61,078 bases of DNA from positions 124,919 to 185,996 of the forward strand of contig LDWW01000005.1 of the NCBI GenBank assembly GCA_001045525.1, written 5' to 3'. Position numbers and translations under genes: made by a program. This DNA is from Chitinispirillum alkaliphilum (GTDB taxonomy: Bacteria; Fibrobacterota; Chitinivibrionia; Chitinivibrionales; Chitinispirillaceae). The notes beneath the pieces were generated by a model. It did not search any database. It was not told the DNA's origin and was given only the letters and a program-made list of their open reading frames with translations. Shown here piece by piece: positions 20,249 to 61,077 of this stretch. Every line of letters starts with the position of its first letter. Within the stretch, counting starts at the first letter, position 1.

Positions 20249-21931
20249 TCATGGAAGTTTCAGGTCTACCTGATACACTGTGTCCGGGTTTTCAAACCAT
20301 GCATTGTTTACCTCGTAAACGGGCATCCAGGCGTATGCAGTATTATCGGAATCAGATGCTCTAACGAGTAGGTTGAAGATTGTTGAGACTGTTTCGCCCG
20401 TTCTTCTCTGATAAACATCCCGGGGCATGTAGATGGTTCCATTTTGACCAGTTATGCCGGTGAGAAAAGGGGTATCTGAAACTGATGAATCCCTGACAGA
20501 AAAAAGCTCGATAACTGCCCCGGGAACAGGTGAACCGTATGAGTCTGTAACATTTAGTCTCATCTGTGGTATGGCAGTTTTTCTTACAAGCTCACGGTCA
20601 ATTGGTTTATTCTTATTGTAGTTAATGATATTTTGGCTCCATTTGCACCAGTTATCTACATCGTATGGCCAGGACATAATAGAAATATCTGAATTGTAGG
20701 AGGTGTTATTAACCGGGTTTTTGGATTCCAGTACAGTAACTGTGGCAAGAGTACTGACACCTCTCATGGCAGCAAAAAGAAACGCTGTTGCATCGACTGC
20801 ATAGCTGTGGAGGATATCCCCGTTGAATGTCCGGGTTGGGAACAGGCCCATTGTGTTGGTCGGGCTCCAGTAGGCAGCTCCCCTGTCTGTGAATCTGTCA
20901 ATGATAAGGCGATAGTCTACATTTGGCGGAGGTGCGATTATCTCTTCAGAGGTGTTGTTTGAGTATGTATAGAGTGAATCAATTTCAAAATAGATGTATC
21001 CATCGAAATCATCAGTAGAGTTGAATTTGTCATTGGCTTTTTTGAACAGGGTTCTTATGTGTTGTACGGTATTTTCAAGTCCCCCGTATGAAGAAACGGT
21101 TGAGTCCTCAACTCCCACAACGACGGAGAAATTCCATAATGGTTTGGGCCAGATTACATCAATTGGTTTCTGAATAGAGTCGGTTTCAAAAAGTACAACT
21201 GAAGTAGTGTCGTGACCACGGACGTTGTTCTGGGGCAGAAGTGCGAGATTTTTATCCAGGCTGGTTCTGTAATAGCTGTATTCTACGGTGTTGCTGTCAA
21301 GAGCAGCCCTGAGATTAATCGTTCCCAGTGATATGGTATCACTGTGGTCCTGCCGCACTGTGACCGGCAGGTAATTAACTGTATTTCCAAAGATAAATCC
21401 GATGTCAAAATGCCCCTGTGGAATATCGGTAAGCCTGAAACGGCCCACATTGTTGGGGCGGGTAATTTTTTCTGTGCCCGGTATGATAATGCTTATATCC
21501 TGAGGCTGTGTTGAGGGATCGGGAACAACTGTGCCGGTCAGGGTAAGGGTTGGCTTAAGGGTCAGATCAAAAGACTGGTTTTGTGAGGTAGAGTTTGTTT
21601 CCAGTCTTGATTCAACTGCAGCAACGTGCTGTTCCTGAAAATTGCTGAAAATAACATAGCGACCGGCTTCGGGAGAGAAAAATGAATAGAAACCGGTACT
21701 GTCGGTAAAAACACTCGTATCAGCGCTGCCTCTGTCTCCCTCTTCGGTGATAAGAACGCTTCTCAGTGTTACTGAAGCATTTTCCATTGATTTGCCATGC
21801 TGGTCAGTAACATTCCCCATAATCACAGGATTGCCTGTCTCGGTACTGCTCCCTCCTCCCGCCAGATCTAAAGAACATCCCTGCAGCACAATAACAGCAA
21901 AGTATATTAGAGAAGCGACAAACGTTCTCAT
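20249..21931 (-). CDS. large lipoprotein with carboxypeptidase-regulatory-like domains
   Basis: 560 residues. Signal peptide and lipobox LQGC-S at residues ~16-20, followed by the low-complexity linker GGGSSTETGNP. Residues ~35-110 form a carboxypeptidase regulatory-like / transthyretin-like beta-sandwich (GNVTDQHGKSMENASVTLRS, DSTGFYSFFSPEAGRYVI). A second, weaker beta domain follows to ~200. The C-terminal ~350 residues show no family I recognise; they include a near-C-terminal stretch, YGSPVPGAVIELFSVRD, that looks like another such sandwich. The ATG overlaps the stop of the regulator gene (ATGA), so both are made together. Confidence 0.78.
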   Translation of the reverse strand: MRTFVASLIYFAVIVLQGCSLDLAGGGSSTETGNPVIMGNVTDQHGKSMENASVTLRSVLITEEGDRGSADTSVFTDSTGFYSFFSPEAGRYVIFSNFQEQHVAAVESRLETNSTSQNQSFDLTLKPTLTLTGTVVPDPSTQPQDISIIIPGTEKITRPNNVGRFRLTDIPQGHFDIGFIFGNTVNYLPVTVRQDHSDTISLGTINLRAALDSNTVEYSYYRTSLDKNLALLPQNNVRGHDTTSVVLFETDSIQKPIDVIWPKPLWNFSVVVGVEDSTVSSYGGLENTVQHIRTLFKKANDKFNSTDDFDGYIYFEIDSLYTYSNNTSEEIIAPPPNVDYRLIIDRFTDRGAAYWSPTNTMGLFPTRTFNGDILHSYAVDATAFLFAAMRGVSTLATVTVLESKNPVNNTSYNSDISIMSWPYDVDNWCKWSQNIINYNKNKPIDRELVRKTAIPQMRLNVTDSYGSPVPGAVIELFSVRDSSVSDTPFLTGITGQNGTIYMPRDVYQRRTGETVSTIFNLLVRASDSDNTAYAWMPVYEVNNAWFENPDTVYQVDLKLP

Positions 21932-22794
21932 GTGTCATTTTCCTTTCTGTTTTCATCCGGAATTTTGGAGAGCGGGAAAAGATGAAAATTCAAAGCGTAC
22001 ACCCTGTCTGCCTCCTGATCCAGATTTACCAGTTGAACAATCTCTCTTCTGAACGCTTCAAGTCTCTCTGTAATGATTTTGTAGGTATTCTCCGAAAGGC
22101 CCAGTGTGAGACCTGAGAAATTGCGTTGGGAACGGGGAACCTGATCGAGAGCTTTGGATGCGAGATCCATATCTCTGAGATAATGTTTCTGAAGAGAGTG
22201 GCGTTTTATTTCATCGCCTGTCGATATTGCAGTATTGCTTACTTTCCATATTCCGTCTTCATCCGTATAGATCATTCCAAGCTTTTGAAGGAGCTGCACC
22301 GATTTTTTGGCTTTGGAGACGGTTATGGGAGGGTTTACCATTCCCGCAAGCCACTCATAATCATCTCTGAAATCATACATGTTTATGAGTGAGCGAATTA
22401 TCAGATGGTGTCTTTCGGAAAATACAAGGTACTGATCATCTCTGATGAGTTCGGGTTTTGAGTAGCGGGACACCTCTTTTCTCAGCAGAGAGAGGCGTGT
22501 AAAGTACAGATCACGGTCTTCGTGATTTTTTGCCTGATTGAAATGAACAAGAAGACGAAAGTAGTTGGCTTTTCTCTTAGTCAGTTTGATCGCCTTGCAT
22601 ACTTTCTGACTGCTCTGGGGAGAGAGATTTTTGCTTCCCTGAATCACCCGGTAGATAAAATCTTTGGTTTTGAACCCGCACATATCGGAGAACACACGAT
22701 AGGAAAACCGTGGATCGCAGTTTTTCTGGTAAGCAAACCACTCGGAAAGAAATTGCCGGTAATCTGTGTAGTTATATATTAAATCTGTATTCAT
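21928..22794 (-). CDS. TIGR02147/DUF4423-type regulator-like protein
   Basis: 288 residues from ATG 22794, with AGAGGA eight bases upstream. The opening YNYTDYRQFLSEWFAYQK and the following FSYRVFSDMCGFKTKDFIYRVIQG fit TIGR02147, a family I know as expanded in Fibrobacter succinogenes. It has a helix-turn-helix-like N-terminal part and a DUF4423 core (SVQLLQKLGMIYTDEDGIWKVSN, a winged-helix look; then SENTYKIITERLEAFRREIV). Role is unknown; DNA binding is probable. Its stop overlaps the lipoprotein start, and the 395-base spacer upstream holds five GTTGTC/GACAAC hexamers. Confidence 0.82.
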   Translation of the reverse strand: MNTDLIYNYTDYRQFLSEWFAYQKNCDPRFSYRVFSDMCGFKTKDFIYRVIQGSKNLSPQSSQKVCKAIKLTKRKANYFRLLVHFNQAKNHEDRDLYFTRLSLLRKEVSRYSKPELIRDDQYLVFSERHHLIIRSLINMYDFRDDYEWLAGMVNPPITVSKAKKSVQLLQKLGMIYTDEDGIWKVSNTAISTGDEIKRHSLQKHYLRDMDLASKALDQVPRSQRNFSGLTLGLSENTYKIITERLEAFRREIVQLVNLDQEADRVYALNFHLFPLSKIPDENRKENDT

Positions 22795-23189
22795 GATATA
22801 ATCCTCTGTCTTCCTACAATATAAGACAACCTCGGCATTATTTCCCACCTTTTTTTTCTGTTTCTTAAAATCCGGACAACGGTCAAAGGAGTTGTCTGAT
22901 TGTCTTTTAGTGAGCAGGAGTGGTTCAAATGTGATGATCGGTTAAATGTTGCATGTTAGGCAATGGGTGTTTCAGTGTTTGGGTTGTCTGAAAACAGGCA
23001 GAACGCGCATTAGGAAAAAAATATTGCCGTTTATATGTCATATTGACAATGGCTTATGGGGTGCTCGGGGGTTGTCCAAATTAAAAACAAAGCAAAAAAT
23101 CCAAATTTACGGTATAATTTAAAGTTAAGGGTGGGCCAGCCCCACTGATGCTGTTAACTCAAACACATACCTTTTAAAGGAGTACCACT
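22795..23189. promoter_or_regulatory. divergent control region with repeated GTTGTC/GACAAC hexamers
   Basis: The spacer between the regulator gene (minus) and the M6 protease gene (plus) holds five copies of one hexamer: GACAAC at 22825-22830 and 22875-22880, and GTTGTC at 22891-22896, 22983-22988 and 23071-23076. The second and third form an inverted pair with a ten-base gap. By base odds about 0.2 copies would be expected in such a length. A TATAAT at 23113-23118 sits some 70 bases before the protease ATG, without a convincing -35. The AAAGGAG site precedes ATG 23190. The arrangement suggests an operator cluster, possibly for the adjacent regulator. Confidence 0.5.
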
Positions 23190-26100
23190 ATGAAAACCTC
23201 TCCTCCATCCAGGCTCAGGAGGATCTCAGCTGTAACAATGATGTTACTGTTGGCTGTAATGTATCTCTACGCCAGACCCCATCTGGGTGAAGAGTTTGAA
23301 CTCAGACAACCTGATGGAAGTTTGGTTCCGGTACTCGTGTGGGGTGATGAGTACTATCAGGATGTAGAGTGTCCGGATGGTTTTACTCTTATCAGATGTT
23401 CCGAAACAGAGTGGATACACTACGCAGAAGTATCAGAAGACGGTACAGAGTATGTCCCCAGCGGAGTTATTTATCACGGAGATATGGCACCTGCTCCGGG
23501 GCGTGTTTCCAGACCAAGACAGAGGCACAAACGTATTGCAAGAGAGGAAATTACCCGAAGACAGCGGAAAAACCGGGAATCGATGGGGTATTACGAACAT
23601 CTGGAAGAGGCGGCTGGAGATGAATTCAGAATGTCCCCAATGTTTGATGATGAAGCTCAGCCTTCCAGTGATGTCAGGGAGGTGGTTGGGTTAACCATCC
23701 TGATTGACTTTCCCGACCAGAGATCAAATGTCACAAGAGCACAGGCAAATAATTTCCATAACCAGAGGGGCTATAACCTTGATAACAATAATGGCTCTGT
23801 TTACGACTACTGGCATGACGTTTCCGGCGGAAAGCTGAGTTATACAAATGTTGTCACTGATTATGTCAGAGTCAGCAGGAATAAAGGATACTACGATTCA
23901 GGTTCTGGCTATGGCAGAGTAACAGAATTTCTCACCGAAGCGCTGCAGATTCTCAATTCCAGAGGGTTCAACTTCCGCCAGTTATCAAGAACTTCACAAA
24001 ACAGGGTCGTGGCTTTGAATATTCTATATGCAGGCCAGCCGGAAGCTGGATGGGCAAACGGGCTTTGGCCGCATATGGGAACTTACAGGGGGAATTTTGT
24101 TTCTCATGATGGAGTGAGAATAGGGCGTTACCAGATGACAAATATTGGTAACAGACTCACTCAGGGTACTTTTAATCACGAAACAGGTCACCTCGTTATG
24201 GGATGGCCCGACCTTTACTCCTATGATGGTCACTCAAACGGGGTGGGAAATTGGTGTATAATGAACTTTATCGCCAGCAGCACAAATCCTCCACCTCCAA
24301 ACCCCTGGTTTGCCCATCAGGCTGGCTGGATCAATGCCCGTGATATCACCAATGCTTCCCGGGGTACGCAGTTTACTCACCAGGCTAATTCACTTGATGC
24401 ATTTTTCTATTTGGGTACAAACACAGGCAGCTCAAGAGAATTATACATAATAGAGTCAAGGCGCAGAGCCGGACGGAGTGCCAGTTTACCGGGATCTGGG
24501 CTTCTTATCTGGCATGTCCACCGGGACGGAAATAACACCAGAGATGTACCTGACCGTCCACCTCTTGTAGCCCTAATACAGGCTGATGGAAGAAGGGACT
24601 TGGAGGGAAGGCGCAACAGGGGTGATGCAGGTGATCCATTTTTTGAAGGGCATAACAATCGGTTTAACAGAACCTCAACACCCGCTTCAATATGGCACAA
24701 CAGGGTAGCATCTGGTCTTGACATAGGTAATATAAGTGAGAGAGCTGCTACCATGACCTTTACCATAGGTAACGAAATTATTACCACAAAATGCACCCTA
24801 ACTGTGCGGGCAACCAACGGATCAGTAAGAGCTAATCCCAACAAGACAGTATTTGACTTCGGTGAAAGTGTAGTACTGACTGCAAGTGCCAATGATGGAT
24901 ATGAGTTCAGTCACTGGAGCGGAGATGCTTCCGGAACTGAAAACCCTCTTACCCTCACCATGGACAGAAACAGAACTGTGCGTGCCAATTTTGTACAGGA
25001 TATAAGCAGTGGTAATGTCGTGAGCAGGGTAAACTGGAGCGCATACAAAGACGATTTCGGATCTGAAATCGATACCGGTTCCTCAATCCTGGTCAATGAT
25101 GTAGCTACTATGGGGTATACTGTAGTAAGACAGCCGGATGAAGACAGTTGGCCATGGGTGAAACTTATGGCAAGCTTTGACGATCCGCTGACCGGGATGG
25201 GAAGTGTAACAATAGAATACAGAAGCTCCGAAGGGCTTAATGTGAGTCTCGAGCAACCCCCTCTTAACATGAACGGTACTTCCTGGCAGAGCAGTTTGGA
25301 ACCAAGCAGCAACTGGAGAACTGTGAGATTGAGTCTTTCTGATTTCGCTCAGCCGCCCTATGTAACCAATGGCACAGATCTGAATCTTGATACTGTTTAC
25401 AGTTTCTCCTTCAATCCCAGTCCCCAGAATATAAATGCCACTACTGACGGACAGGTAGAGATAAGGCAGTTGATTTTCCATGGGGTTGATTGGGATCTTG
25501 ATGAGATGTATACACTTACTGTCAATGCCCAAAACGGCTCCGTGACCCGCTCGCCGAACAGAATCAACTACAGCCATAATGAAACGGTTACTCTTACAGC
25601 AAGTGCAGATGATGGATACCGGTTTTTAAGTTGGAGTGGTGATGCCTCAGGTGTTTCAGAGTCAATTGAAGTAACCATGGACAGAAACAGAACCATAACT
25701 GCAAATTTTGAACAAGATGTATTCGATGTGGATACAACCGGAGCGAGTGATAATCTGGTCGGGTTAATAAGCTGGACTACGGTTGCAGACGATCTGGGTT
25801 CTTCTGCTGATACGGGAAGTTCGATGGTAATCGAAGATGTGGTGAAAGCCGATCTGAATCGGATCGAACAACCTTCCGAAAATCAATGGCCATGGATAAA
25901 TATTACAGGTACATTGAATAATCAGTCACTTACAGATATAACTGCCATGAGAATCACCTACAGAAGTACTGAACCTCTTAAGGTCCACCTGGCTATGAGT
26001 GAGCTGGCTTCTGAAGGCCTCACCCATTACCATTCAATTGAAGCAACCGGTAACGAGTGGAATACGGTATATCTGGACCCATCAAGATTTCGTCAACCTG

Positions 26101-26513
26101 ACAGGGTCGAGGATAAGGAAGATCTGGACCTTTCCTCTGTGTTCTCAATACTCTTTGAAATTGACAGTGATGACTACTCAAACGATGTCAGTTCAACTAT
26201 TGAGATAAGTGATCTGGTTCTGTTTAATTTCGATTACGTAGGAACAATCGCTTCAACTCAAAACAGAGGGCTGATACAGATTACAGAACCAAGACTCACC
26301 CGCTCAGCGGTTTCTTTTACCGTAGCGGAAGGCCATAGCAGCATAACCCTGTATTCACTTGATGGTAGAAATCTGGCTACTCTCCATAACGGTTATCTCA
26401 ATGCCGGAACGCACACATTAAGACTGAACGGAGGAAATCTCTCAGCCGGAATCTATCTGGTAAAAATCAATACCGGAGATAAGGTTACGGTATACAGACA
26501 GATGGTAAGGTAA
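23190..26513 (+). CDS. secreted M6-family metalloprotease with InlB-type repeats and sorting-like tail
   Basis: 1107 residues, with AAAGGAG before the ATG and an N-terminal signal segment (VTMMLLLAVMYLYA). A propeptide-like part leads to the M6 peptidase domain, whose zinc site HETGH at 330-334 continues to G338 and D341 (HExxHxxxGxxD). From ~535 two near-repeats follow, each made of a divergent InlB B-repeat (NGSVRANPN, WSGDASG, MDRNRTVRANF) and a ~170-residue beta module (WPWVKL, then ITYRSTEP in the second copy). The C-terminal ~80 residues form a sorting-like tail (ITLYSLDGRNLATLHNG, GIYLVKINTG). Likely exported and cell-surface or extracellular, degrading protein. Confidence 0.9.
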   Translation: MKTSPPSRLRRISAVTMMLLLAVMYLYARPHLGEEFELRQPDGSLVPVLVWGDEYYQDVECPDGFTLIRCSETEWIHYAEVSEDGTEYVPSGVIYHGDMAPAPGRVSRPRQRHKRIAREEITRRQRKNRESMGYYEHLEEAAGDEFRMSPMFDDEAQPSSDVREVVGLTILIDFPDQRSNVTRAQANNFHNQRGYNLDNNNGSVYDYWHDVSGGKLSYTNVVTDYVRVSRNKGYYDSGSGYGRVTEFLTEALQILNSRGFNFRQLSRTSQNRVVALNILYAGQPEAGWANGLWPHMGTYRGNFVSHDGVRIGRYQMTNIGNRLTQGTFNHETGHLVMGWPDLYSYDGHSNGVGNWCIMNFIASSTNPPPPNPWFAHQAGWINARDITNASRGTQFTHQANSLDAFFYLGTNTGSSRELYIIESRRRAGRSASLPGSGLLIWHVHRDGNNTRDVPDRPPLVALIQADGRRDLEGRRNRGDAGDPFFEGHNNRFNRTSTPASIWHNRVASGLDIGNISERAATMTFTIGNEIITTKCTLTVRATNGSVRANPNKTVFDFGESVVLTASANDGYEFSHWSGDASGTENPLTLTMDRNRTVRANFVQDISSGNVVSRVNWSAYKDDFGSEIDTGSSILVNDVATMGYTVVRQPDEDSWPWVKLMASFDDPLTGMGSVTIEYRSSEGLNVSLEQPPLNMNGTSWQSSLEPSSNWRTVRLSLSDFAQPPYVTNGTDLNLDTVYSFSFNPSPQNINATTDGQVEIRQLIFHGVDWDLDEMYTLTVNAQNGSVTRSPNRINYSHNETVTLTASADDGYRFLSWSGDASGVSESIEVTMDRNRTITANFEQDVFDVDTTGASDNLVGLISWTTVADDLGSSADTGSSMVIEDVVKADLNRIEQPSENQWPWINITGTLNNQSLTDITAMRITYRSTEPLKVHLAMSELASEGLTHYHSIEATGNEWNTVYLDPSRFRQPDRVEDKEDLDLSSVFSILFEIDSDDYSNDVSSTIEISDLVLFNFDYVGTIASTQNRGLIQITEPRLTRSAVSFTVAEGHSSITLYSLDGRNLATLHNGYLNAGTHTLRLNGGNLSAGIYLVKINTGDKVTVYRQMVR

Positions 26514-60612: not shown

Positions 60613-60671
60613 CTCACGGTGGGGGATTTTCGAATCTTGCTTCCGGTTTTTCTCTCGCTTTCCGCTCACAC
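60613..60671. repeat. direct repeat, copy 1
   Basis: The run ACGGTGGGGG...CTTGCTTCCGGTTTTTCTCTCGC and TTTCCGCTCACAC recurs at the window end with few changes. The match is strongest over 60637-60671 (32 of 35 bases). Confidence 0.8.
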
Positions 60672-61016
60672 AGCCTGTCCTGAGCTCCCAGTCGAAGGGA
60701 GCATCCCGATTTCCGAATCGGGATTGTCGAAGTGTTCTTAAAAAACATATTTAAAGTGAAAGAGATTGAGTAAGAGAATAAGAATATTCTGGGCGCATGC
60801 CGCGGACAGTTCGGCCAGGCTCACTGTAAACTTACCGGTTCTCCTCCAGGCTTCCCGATTGAAATCGGGATTCCTCCTCGGTGCCACGTTTGTAGGGCTG
60901 CGCGAAGACACTCCACCCTTTGAGGGCACTGGCACTTAAGAAAGTGCCACCTTCTGTCCCCCCTTGCGCGTTTTACCCTGCGGTATTTGCATTACCTTTT
61001 GTGAGTTTGTTATTGC

Positions 61017-61077
61017 TACGGTGTGGGGGGGTATAAGAAATTTTGTTTCCGGTTTTTCTCTCACTTTCCGCTCACAC
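61017..61077. repeat. direct repeat, copy 2
   Basis: Second copy of the unit at 60613: TTTCCGGTTTTTCTCTCAC then TTTCCGCTCACAC. Its right border lies at or beyond the window edge. Confidence 0.8.

Follow-up and report, generated by a model that had tools for sequence, protein, structure and literature searches.

Bacteroidota control their polysaccharide-utilization loci through local activators, namely SusR, HTCS and ECF sigma/anti-sigma systems. The TIGR02147 (Fsuc_second) proteins of the Fibrobacterota, relatives within the FCB group, resemble these activators in that a genome carries many paralogues, frequently next to genes encoding a surface lipoprotein and secreted enzymes, but they have a different protein fold and a different partner. 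Regulators with a Cro/CI-type (XRE) helix-turn-helix (HTH), such as HigA and C.AhdI, have an N-terminal multi-helix HTH that the predicted one of the TIGR02147 proteins weakly resembles and that would read short palindromic half-sites; the TIGR02147 proteins, unlike them, carry an extra C-terminal DUF4423 domain and have operators at activator distance.

Neither the TIGR02147 nor the DUF4423 (PF14394) model has a function or a DNA target attached. In the literature searched, no paper names TIGR02147, and DUF4423 is mentioned a single time, in a Bdellovibrio proteome table (PMC12546842). The original prediction for this DNA had described the family as one with no known DNA target. The F. succinogenes genome paper left the transcriptional control of cellulases unanswered and found few regulators near cellulases (PMC3079729).

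We analyzed a divergent promoter region within a stretch of 61,078 nucleotides from Chitinispirillum alkaliphilum (the window). Our results point to a palindromic family operator, the inner triplet of which follows the recognition helix of the adjacent regulator. The target of the family, the helix-to-triplet rule and the link to plant cell-wall enzymes appear to be new, whereas the type of operator is conventional.

A regulator-lipoprotein pair beside a secreted protease

The window regulator clearly belongs to the family, scoring 270.3 bits against TIGR02147 (cut-off 50) and 113.7 bits against DUF4423 (cut-off 30). In its AlphaFold2 model (mean pLDDT 88.6), helices 32-39 and 46-52, both with a pLDDT of about 98, fit an HTH, with K44 and D45 at the start of the second helix, the expected recognition helix (GFKTKDFIYRV). 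Foldseek matches of this model to HigA and C.AhdI were weak (E about 1), and a PDB search returned neither a significant whole-fold match nor a chain matching the regulator by sequence. The genome of 4.43 Mb holds eight TIGR02147 genes. A scan of genome contigs for close homologues gave no match, and the nearest genus relative has no orthologue of the window regulator (best identity 35%).

The lipoprotein gene overlapping the regulator gene (Table 1) has counterparts in most of the family: a codirectional open reading frame starts between -40 and +150 of the regulator in 109 of 119 members and overlaps it in 89 of those. A crude lipobox-like pattern recognized 27 of these partner genes, and a partner of similar kind is present in most members, a feature seen here that lies outside the curated TIGR02147/DUF4423 definition. 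The divergent protease scores 167.9 bits against TIGR03296 (cut-off 110.8), and its zinc motif (HExxH) is found in the translation.

Table 1. Features of the module and of the divergent promoter region (window positions; L028 is the locus of the duplicate module on contig C18)
Feature	Position	Strand	Remarks
Partner lipoprotein, 560 aa	20249..21931	-	CarboxypepD_reg domain; start overlaps regulator stop by 4 bp
TIGR02147/DUF4423 regulator, 288 aa	21928..22794	-	N-terminal HTH, recognition helix GFKTKDFIYRVIQG; profile match and AlphaFold2 model
Putative regulator -10, TATATT	22818..22823	-	Within 12-base block kept in C18 (TACAATATAAGA, 22815-22826)
S1, GTTGTC	22825..22830	-	Adjoins regulator -10; 5/6 bases in C18 copy
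S2, GTTGTC half-site	22875..22880	-	Regulator's own promoter; starts at -86 from ATG; kept in C18
S3, GTTGTC	22891..22896	+	Everted pair with S2; missing in C18 copy
S4, GTTGTC half-site	22983..22988	+	Faces M6 protease, -207 from ATG; kept at L028:14053
S5, GTTGTC(C) half-site	23071..23076	+	Faces M6 protease, -119 from ATG; kept at L028:14141
Putative protease -10, TATAAT	23113..23118	+	26 bp from S5+16, outside family register
Secreted M6-family metalloprotease	23190..26513	+	Divergent; HETGH motif; T9SS-type C-terminal sorting domain; proposed target

Conservation of three hexamers in a diverged spacer

The 395-bp spacer between the regulator ATG (22794, minus strand) and the protease ATG (23190) holds all five GTTGTC/GACAAC hexamers that had been predicted there, S1 to S3 lying about 30-100 bp upstream of the regulator start codon. 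Across the entire window the hexamer occurs 25 times against 27.5 expected, so its enrichment is local only. Equal density elsewhere in the genome, which would have spoken against an operator, was not found: in a background of 564 kb, complemented by a pattern count over the whole genome, the spacer is the densest place with five copies, followed by one with four. The density in this background is 0.146 per 395 nt. The predicted chance expectation of 0.1-0.2 copies leaves out the choice among hexamers and positions. When all hexamers and positions were allowed, Markov simulations gave 0.2-0.5 comparable clusters (five copies in 252 nt, at least three G+C) per window, against one in the real window. 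This weakens the raw-count argument for an operator, and the count alone is no more than suggestive.

It is conservation, not the hexamer count, that provides the strong evidence. A second regulator-lipoprotein-M6 protease module is present in the same genome on contig C18. The flanking coding DNA of the two modules is 94.8% and 89.9% identical, whereas BLAST between them left the central part of the spacer unmatched; the aligned spacer core is 45% identical outside the hexamers (124/274). S2, S4 and S5 (GTTGTCC) nevertheless stand intact at matching places in the C18 spacer, S2 with its flanks as GGACAACGG at -84, and S4 and S5 are 88 bp apart in both copies; the two modules are duplicates within one genome, and this conservation represents one comparison. 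Shuffles of the C18 core contained three or more hexamers at P of about 5e-5. The remaining long identical runs of the two spacers comprise the regulator -10 region, the ribosome-binding region of the protease and A/T-rich stretches.

A chance cluster of a common hexamer, kept in C18 by duplication alone, would agree with the simulated cluster frequency and with the absence of S1 and S3 from the conserved set. It fails to explain why three hexamers remained intact in so diverged a core, why S2 stands in the exact register of the family operator, and why the same hexamer accompanies the same helix in distant genomes (see below). This reading is largely refuted and in our judgement scarcely credible.

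The duplicate also bears on individual sites. The predicted inverted pair exists as GACAAC-N10-GTTGTC (22875/22891), but it is not a conserved unit, given that its 22891 member is missing from C18; we therefore discarded the everted pair S2-S3 as a functional element. S1 is possibly accidental. The extended motif GTTGTCYRAA has 37 sites in the 4.43-Mb genome, four of which lie inside the two short spacers. Genome-wide it is rarer than a mirrored control pattern (102 sites), which may hint at avoidance of stray sites or may be a compositional effect. Over the complete modules (window 20249-26513 versus L028:11313-17602), the coding regions are 90-95% identical and the divergent promoter spacer is 45% identical, a difference that may reflect gene conversion of the coding regions or rapid promoter turnover.

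A probable family operator at activator distance

For the family as a whole, we examined the DNA upstream of 125 TIGR02147 genes from this genome and from others in its taxonomic family. In an unbiased search for exact inverted repeats with arms of 6 and loops of 2-8, GTTCTC, GTACAC and GTTTTC came out as the commonest arms, and most top arms were of the form GTNNNC, including GTTTCC, GTTATC, GTATCC, GTTGTC and GTATAC. Perfect palindromes with such arms occur within 220 nt upstream of 37 of the 125 members, in contrast to 3 of 289 control genes (other genes from the same loci) and none of 125 shuffles; the members are related, so these counts are not independent events. A relaxed scan detected a GT..AC palindrome in 71 of the 125 members and none in the other 54. 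Most of these palindromes had a loop length of 4 or 5, and many began 80-90 nt ahead of the ATG. The family operator, as read from these scans, is a GTnnnC-N4/5-GnnnAC palindrome with fixed GT...AC and an inner triplet specific to each subgroup. GTTGTC is accordingly ruled out as a family-wide motif, since other subgroups use other triplets. The predicted enrichment of the hexamer near other family members holds for members that share the window's helix and not across the family, where a scan for GTTGTC alone would look negative because each subgroup has its own triplet.

The position of this palindrome relative to the promoter is equally regular. A TATAWT-like -10 hexamer follows the perfect palindrome after 41, 42, 51 or 52 bp in 27 of 34 members, compared with a mean of 6 and a maximum of 14 under permuted pairing. 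With these gaps, the operator centres fall near -61.5 or -71.5, two positions separated by a single helical turn. The same centres are common to CRP sites in class I activation; CRP is a protein unrelated to TIGR02147, and a class I mode for TIGR02147 is what we infer from this geometry.

In the window, S2 stands at the family operator position and carries the triplet that the helix predicts, and its implied 16-bp site ends 41 bp before TATATT (40 bp in the C18 copy), on the helical face that also bears the -10. A palindromic second half (GnnnAC at N3-N6) was looked for at every window hexamer and found at none, and GTTGTCN4GACAAC has zero occurrences in the whole genome. With the second half-site missing, the operator in the window departs from the canonical palindrome and reads as a reduced form of the family operator in which one half is a clear match; cooperative binding of the S2, S4 and S5 half-sites could be one way to offset the missing half. 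On the protease side the register of the family is not kept: S5 lies at a gap of 26 instead of 41 or 51 bp. S5 is also ruled out as a -35 element, as the distance from TTGTCC to TATAAT is 35 bp, not 17.

This geometry bears on the direction of control. The hexamers could be the regulator's target and yet serve autorepression, with S1 abutting and S2 preceding the -10, and with repression extending to the protease. Autorepression is common in small one-component regulators, S1 adjoins TATATT, and the HTH resembles those of HigA and C.AhdI in the weak Foldseek matches. However, the C18 copy does not preserve S1, and 41-42 or 51-52 bp separate the -10 from the conserved site and the family operators, a distance characteristic of class I activation and too large for simple occlusion of RNA polymerase. 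We thus consider repression unlikely, and the regulator is probably an activator of both itself and the protease.

The recognition helix predicts the half-site

The inner triplet and the recognition helix of the neighbouring regulator vary together. Helices of the type SPSFLK are paired with GTACAC, SPNFLKQII with GTATAC, SPVFxKLV with GTATCC, N[KR]GFxYx with GTTATC or GTTACC, SAGFFTN with GTTTTC and KARDxxxRVM with GTTGTC. Helix similarity predicts half-site similarity even after C-terminal identity has been removed (partial Mantel r = 0.26; 0/2000 permutations as high). Members with a GFKx[KR]D helix, the window regulator included, carry GTTGT[C/T]. In the first set these are L077, L097 and L103 with GTTGTCTATAGACAAC and L080 with GTTGTTTAAAAACAAC, and a search of the phylum with an N-terminal alignment supplied more [KR]D-helix genes. 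Among these, Fibrobacter-like genes with GFKAKDFISRV carry CGTTGTT-N4-GACAACG, and nearly all Fibrobacter-like [KR]D members show the gap of 41 bp to the -10 that is also found at S2. Three genes of family f11 with GFKARDYLMRV have a single GTTGTCT half-site, like the window; this single-half pattern is shared with the window only by the GFKARD-helix members L216, L218, L240 and L263.

The rule was then applied to 21 held-out regulators, most of them belonging to other families in the phylum, which had been fetched after the rule was formed. Six of the seven [KR]D members had GTTGTY-N4/5-RACAAC, compared with none of the 14 other regulators (Fisher p = 1.3e-4). Three of the held-out regulators (L264-L266, f11) have the helix GFKTKDFLYRV, near-identical to that of the window, and two perfect GTTGTC-N5-GACAAC palindromes each. 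At L264, one palindrome lies about 80 bp before the gene of a divergent secreted protein (DUF7133-like), a layout as in the window.

The prediction that the spacer hexamers form a candidate operator is supported by the three hexamers kept in the diverged duplicate spacer, by the constant position of GTnnnC half-sites ahead of TIGR02147 genes, and by GTTGTC in members sharing the window's helix, held-out set included. GTTGTC is very probably the binding site of the adjacent TIGR02147 regulator itself, as judged from these sequence patterns. The N-terminal HTH would read GTTGTC via GFKTKDFIYRV. Protein at S2 would be placed like a class I activator, roughly 61 bp ahead of the point where regulator-lipoprotein transcription begins, and would control its own operon; at S4 and S5 it would act on the divergent protease. 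Throughout the family, a dimer would occupy GTnnnC-N4/5-GnnnAC, with the inner triplet dictated by the recognition helix. We regard this joint account, with S2, S4 and S5 as TIGR02147 half-sites, as highly likely.

Pectin-lyase genes as predicted targets in Fibrobacter-like genomes

GTTGTCN4GACAAC is common in genus f9/g29, which we take to be Fibrobacter-like. It occurs in 49 of 50 genomes with a [KR]D regulator and in 10 of 30 without (p = 1.5e-10, kinship within the genus uncorrected), whereas a backward control pattern was rare in both groups (8 and 2, respectively). Most matches in the phylum lie away from TIGR02147 genes, which rules out a location solely upstream of such genes and led to the pectin-lyase targets. 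Among 18 palindromes with GTTGT[CT] arms in 15 sampled loci, 16 lie between genes, in every case 53-101 bp ahead of one. Predicted targets include PL10 pectic acid lyases, PL1-type pectate lyases, family 11 rhamnogalacturonan lyases, a glucuronyl esterase, a GH45 and proteins with DUF6055/DUF4859, of which at least one is related to putative secreted metalloproteases.

These many distant palindromes could also be taken to mean that another regulator, global or sigma-associated, binds the hexamers and that the TIGR02147 gene is a mere neighbour. Against this stand the half-site triplet, which varies with the helix of the adjacent TIGR02147 gene, the GTTGT[CT] shared by [KR]D helices of several families, and the absence of the palindrome from most genomes without a [KR]D regulator; we therefore find a foreign regulator very improbable. 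Under the preferred assignment to TIGR02147, some proteins of the family probably activate the production of plant cell-wall-degrading enzymes. At L168-L190 and L241-L255, palindromes precede pectate lyase, pectic acid lyase, rhamnogalacturonan lyase, glucuronyl esterase and DUF6055 genes, and these sites form a probable pectin regulon of the GFKAKD-helix regulator, as predicted from sequence.

By analogy with the Bacteroidota, the Fibrobacterota would use TIGR02147-lipoprotein pairs in place of SusR, HTCS or ECF systems. More tentatively, and at somewhat less than even odds, we suggest a signal response spanning the phylum, in which dozens of TIGR02147-lipoprotein paralogues, each addressing a private GTnnnC palindrome by its helix code, might induce secreted hydrolases (the M6 protease here, pectin lyases in Fibrobacter) while the lipoprotein reports the substrate. 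If true, this system would correspond to what SusR, HTCS and ECF systems do in Bacteroidota. Independently of this suggestion, the operator analysis supplies a predicted DNA target, a rule of recognition and a promoter geometry for a regulator family that can reach about 60 members in a genome and for which no function is reported. The question of cellulase control becomes testable. The operator of one TIGR02147 subgroup precedes pectate lyase and rhamnogalacturonan lyase genes, and regulons of the remaining subgroups can be predicted across whole genomes from the half-site rule.

Two repeat structures were additionally observed. The end of the window (60622-61077) matches the end of contig C55 in several overlapping pieces (73-82% identity) as well as L028:8133-8243, and is a repeated element. 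Upstream of the TIGR02147 gene on C55, L030:1-487 contains a short-repeat array of CACTGC/CCCACTGCACC units with eight copies of CACTGC.
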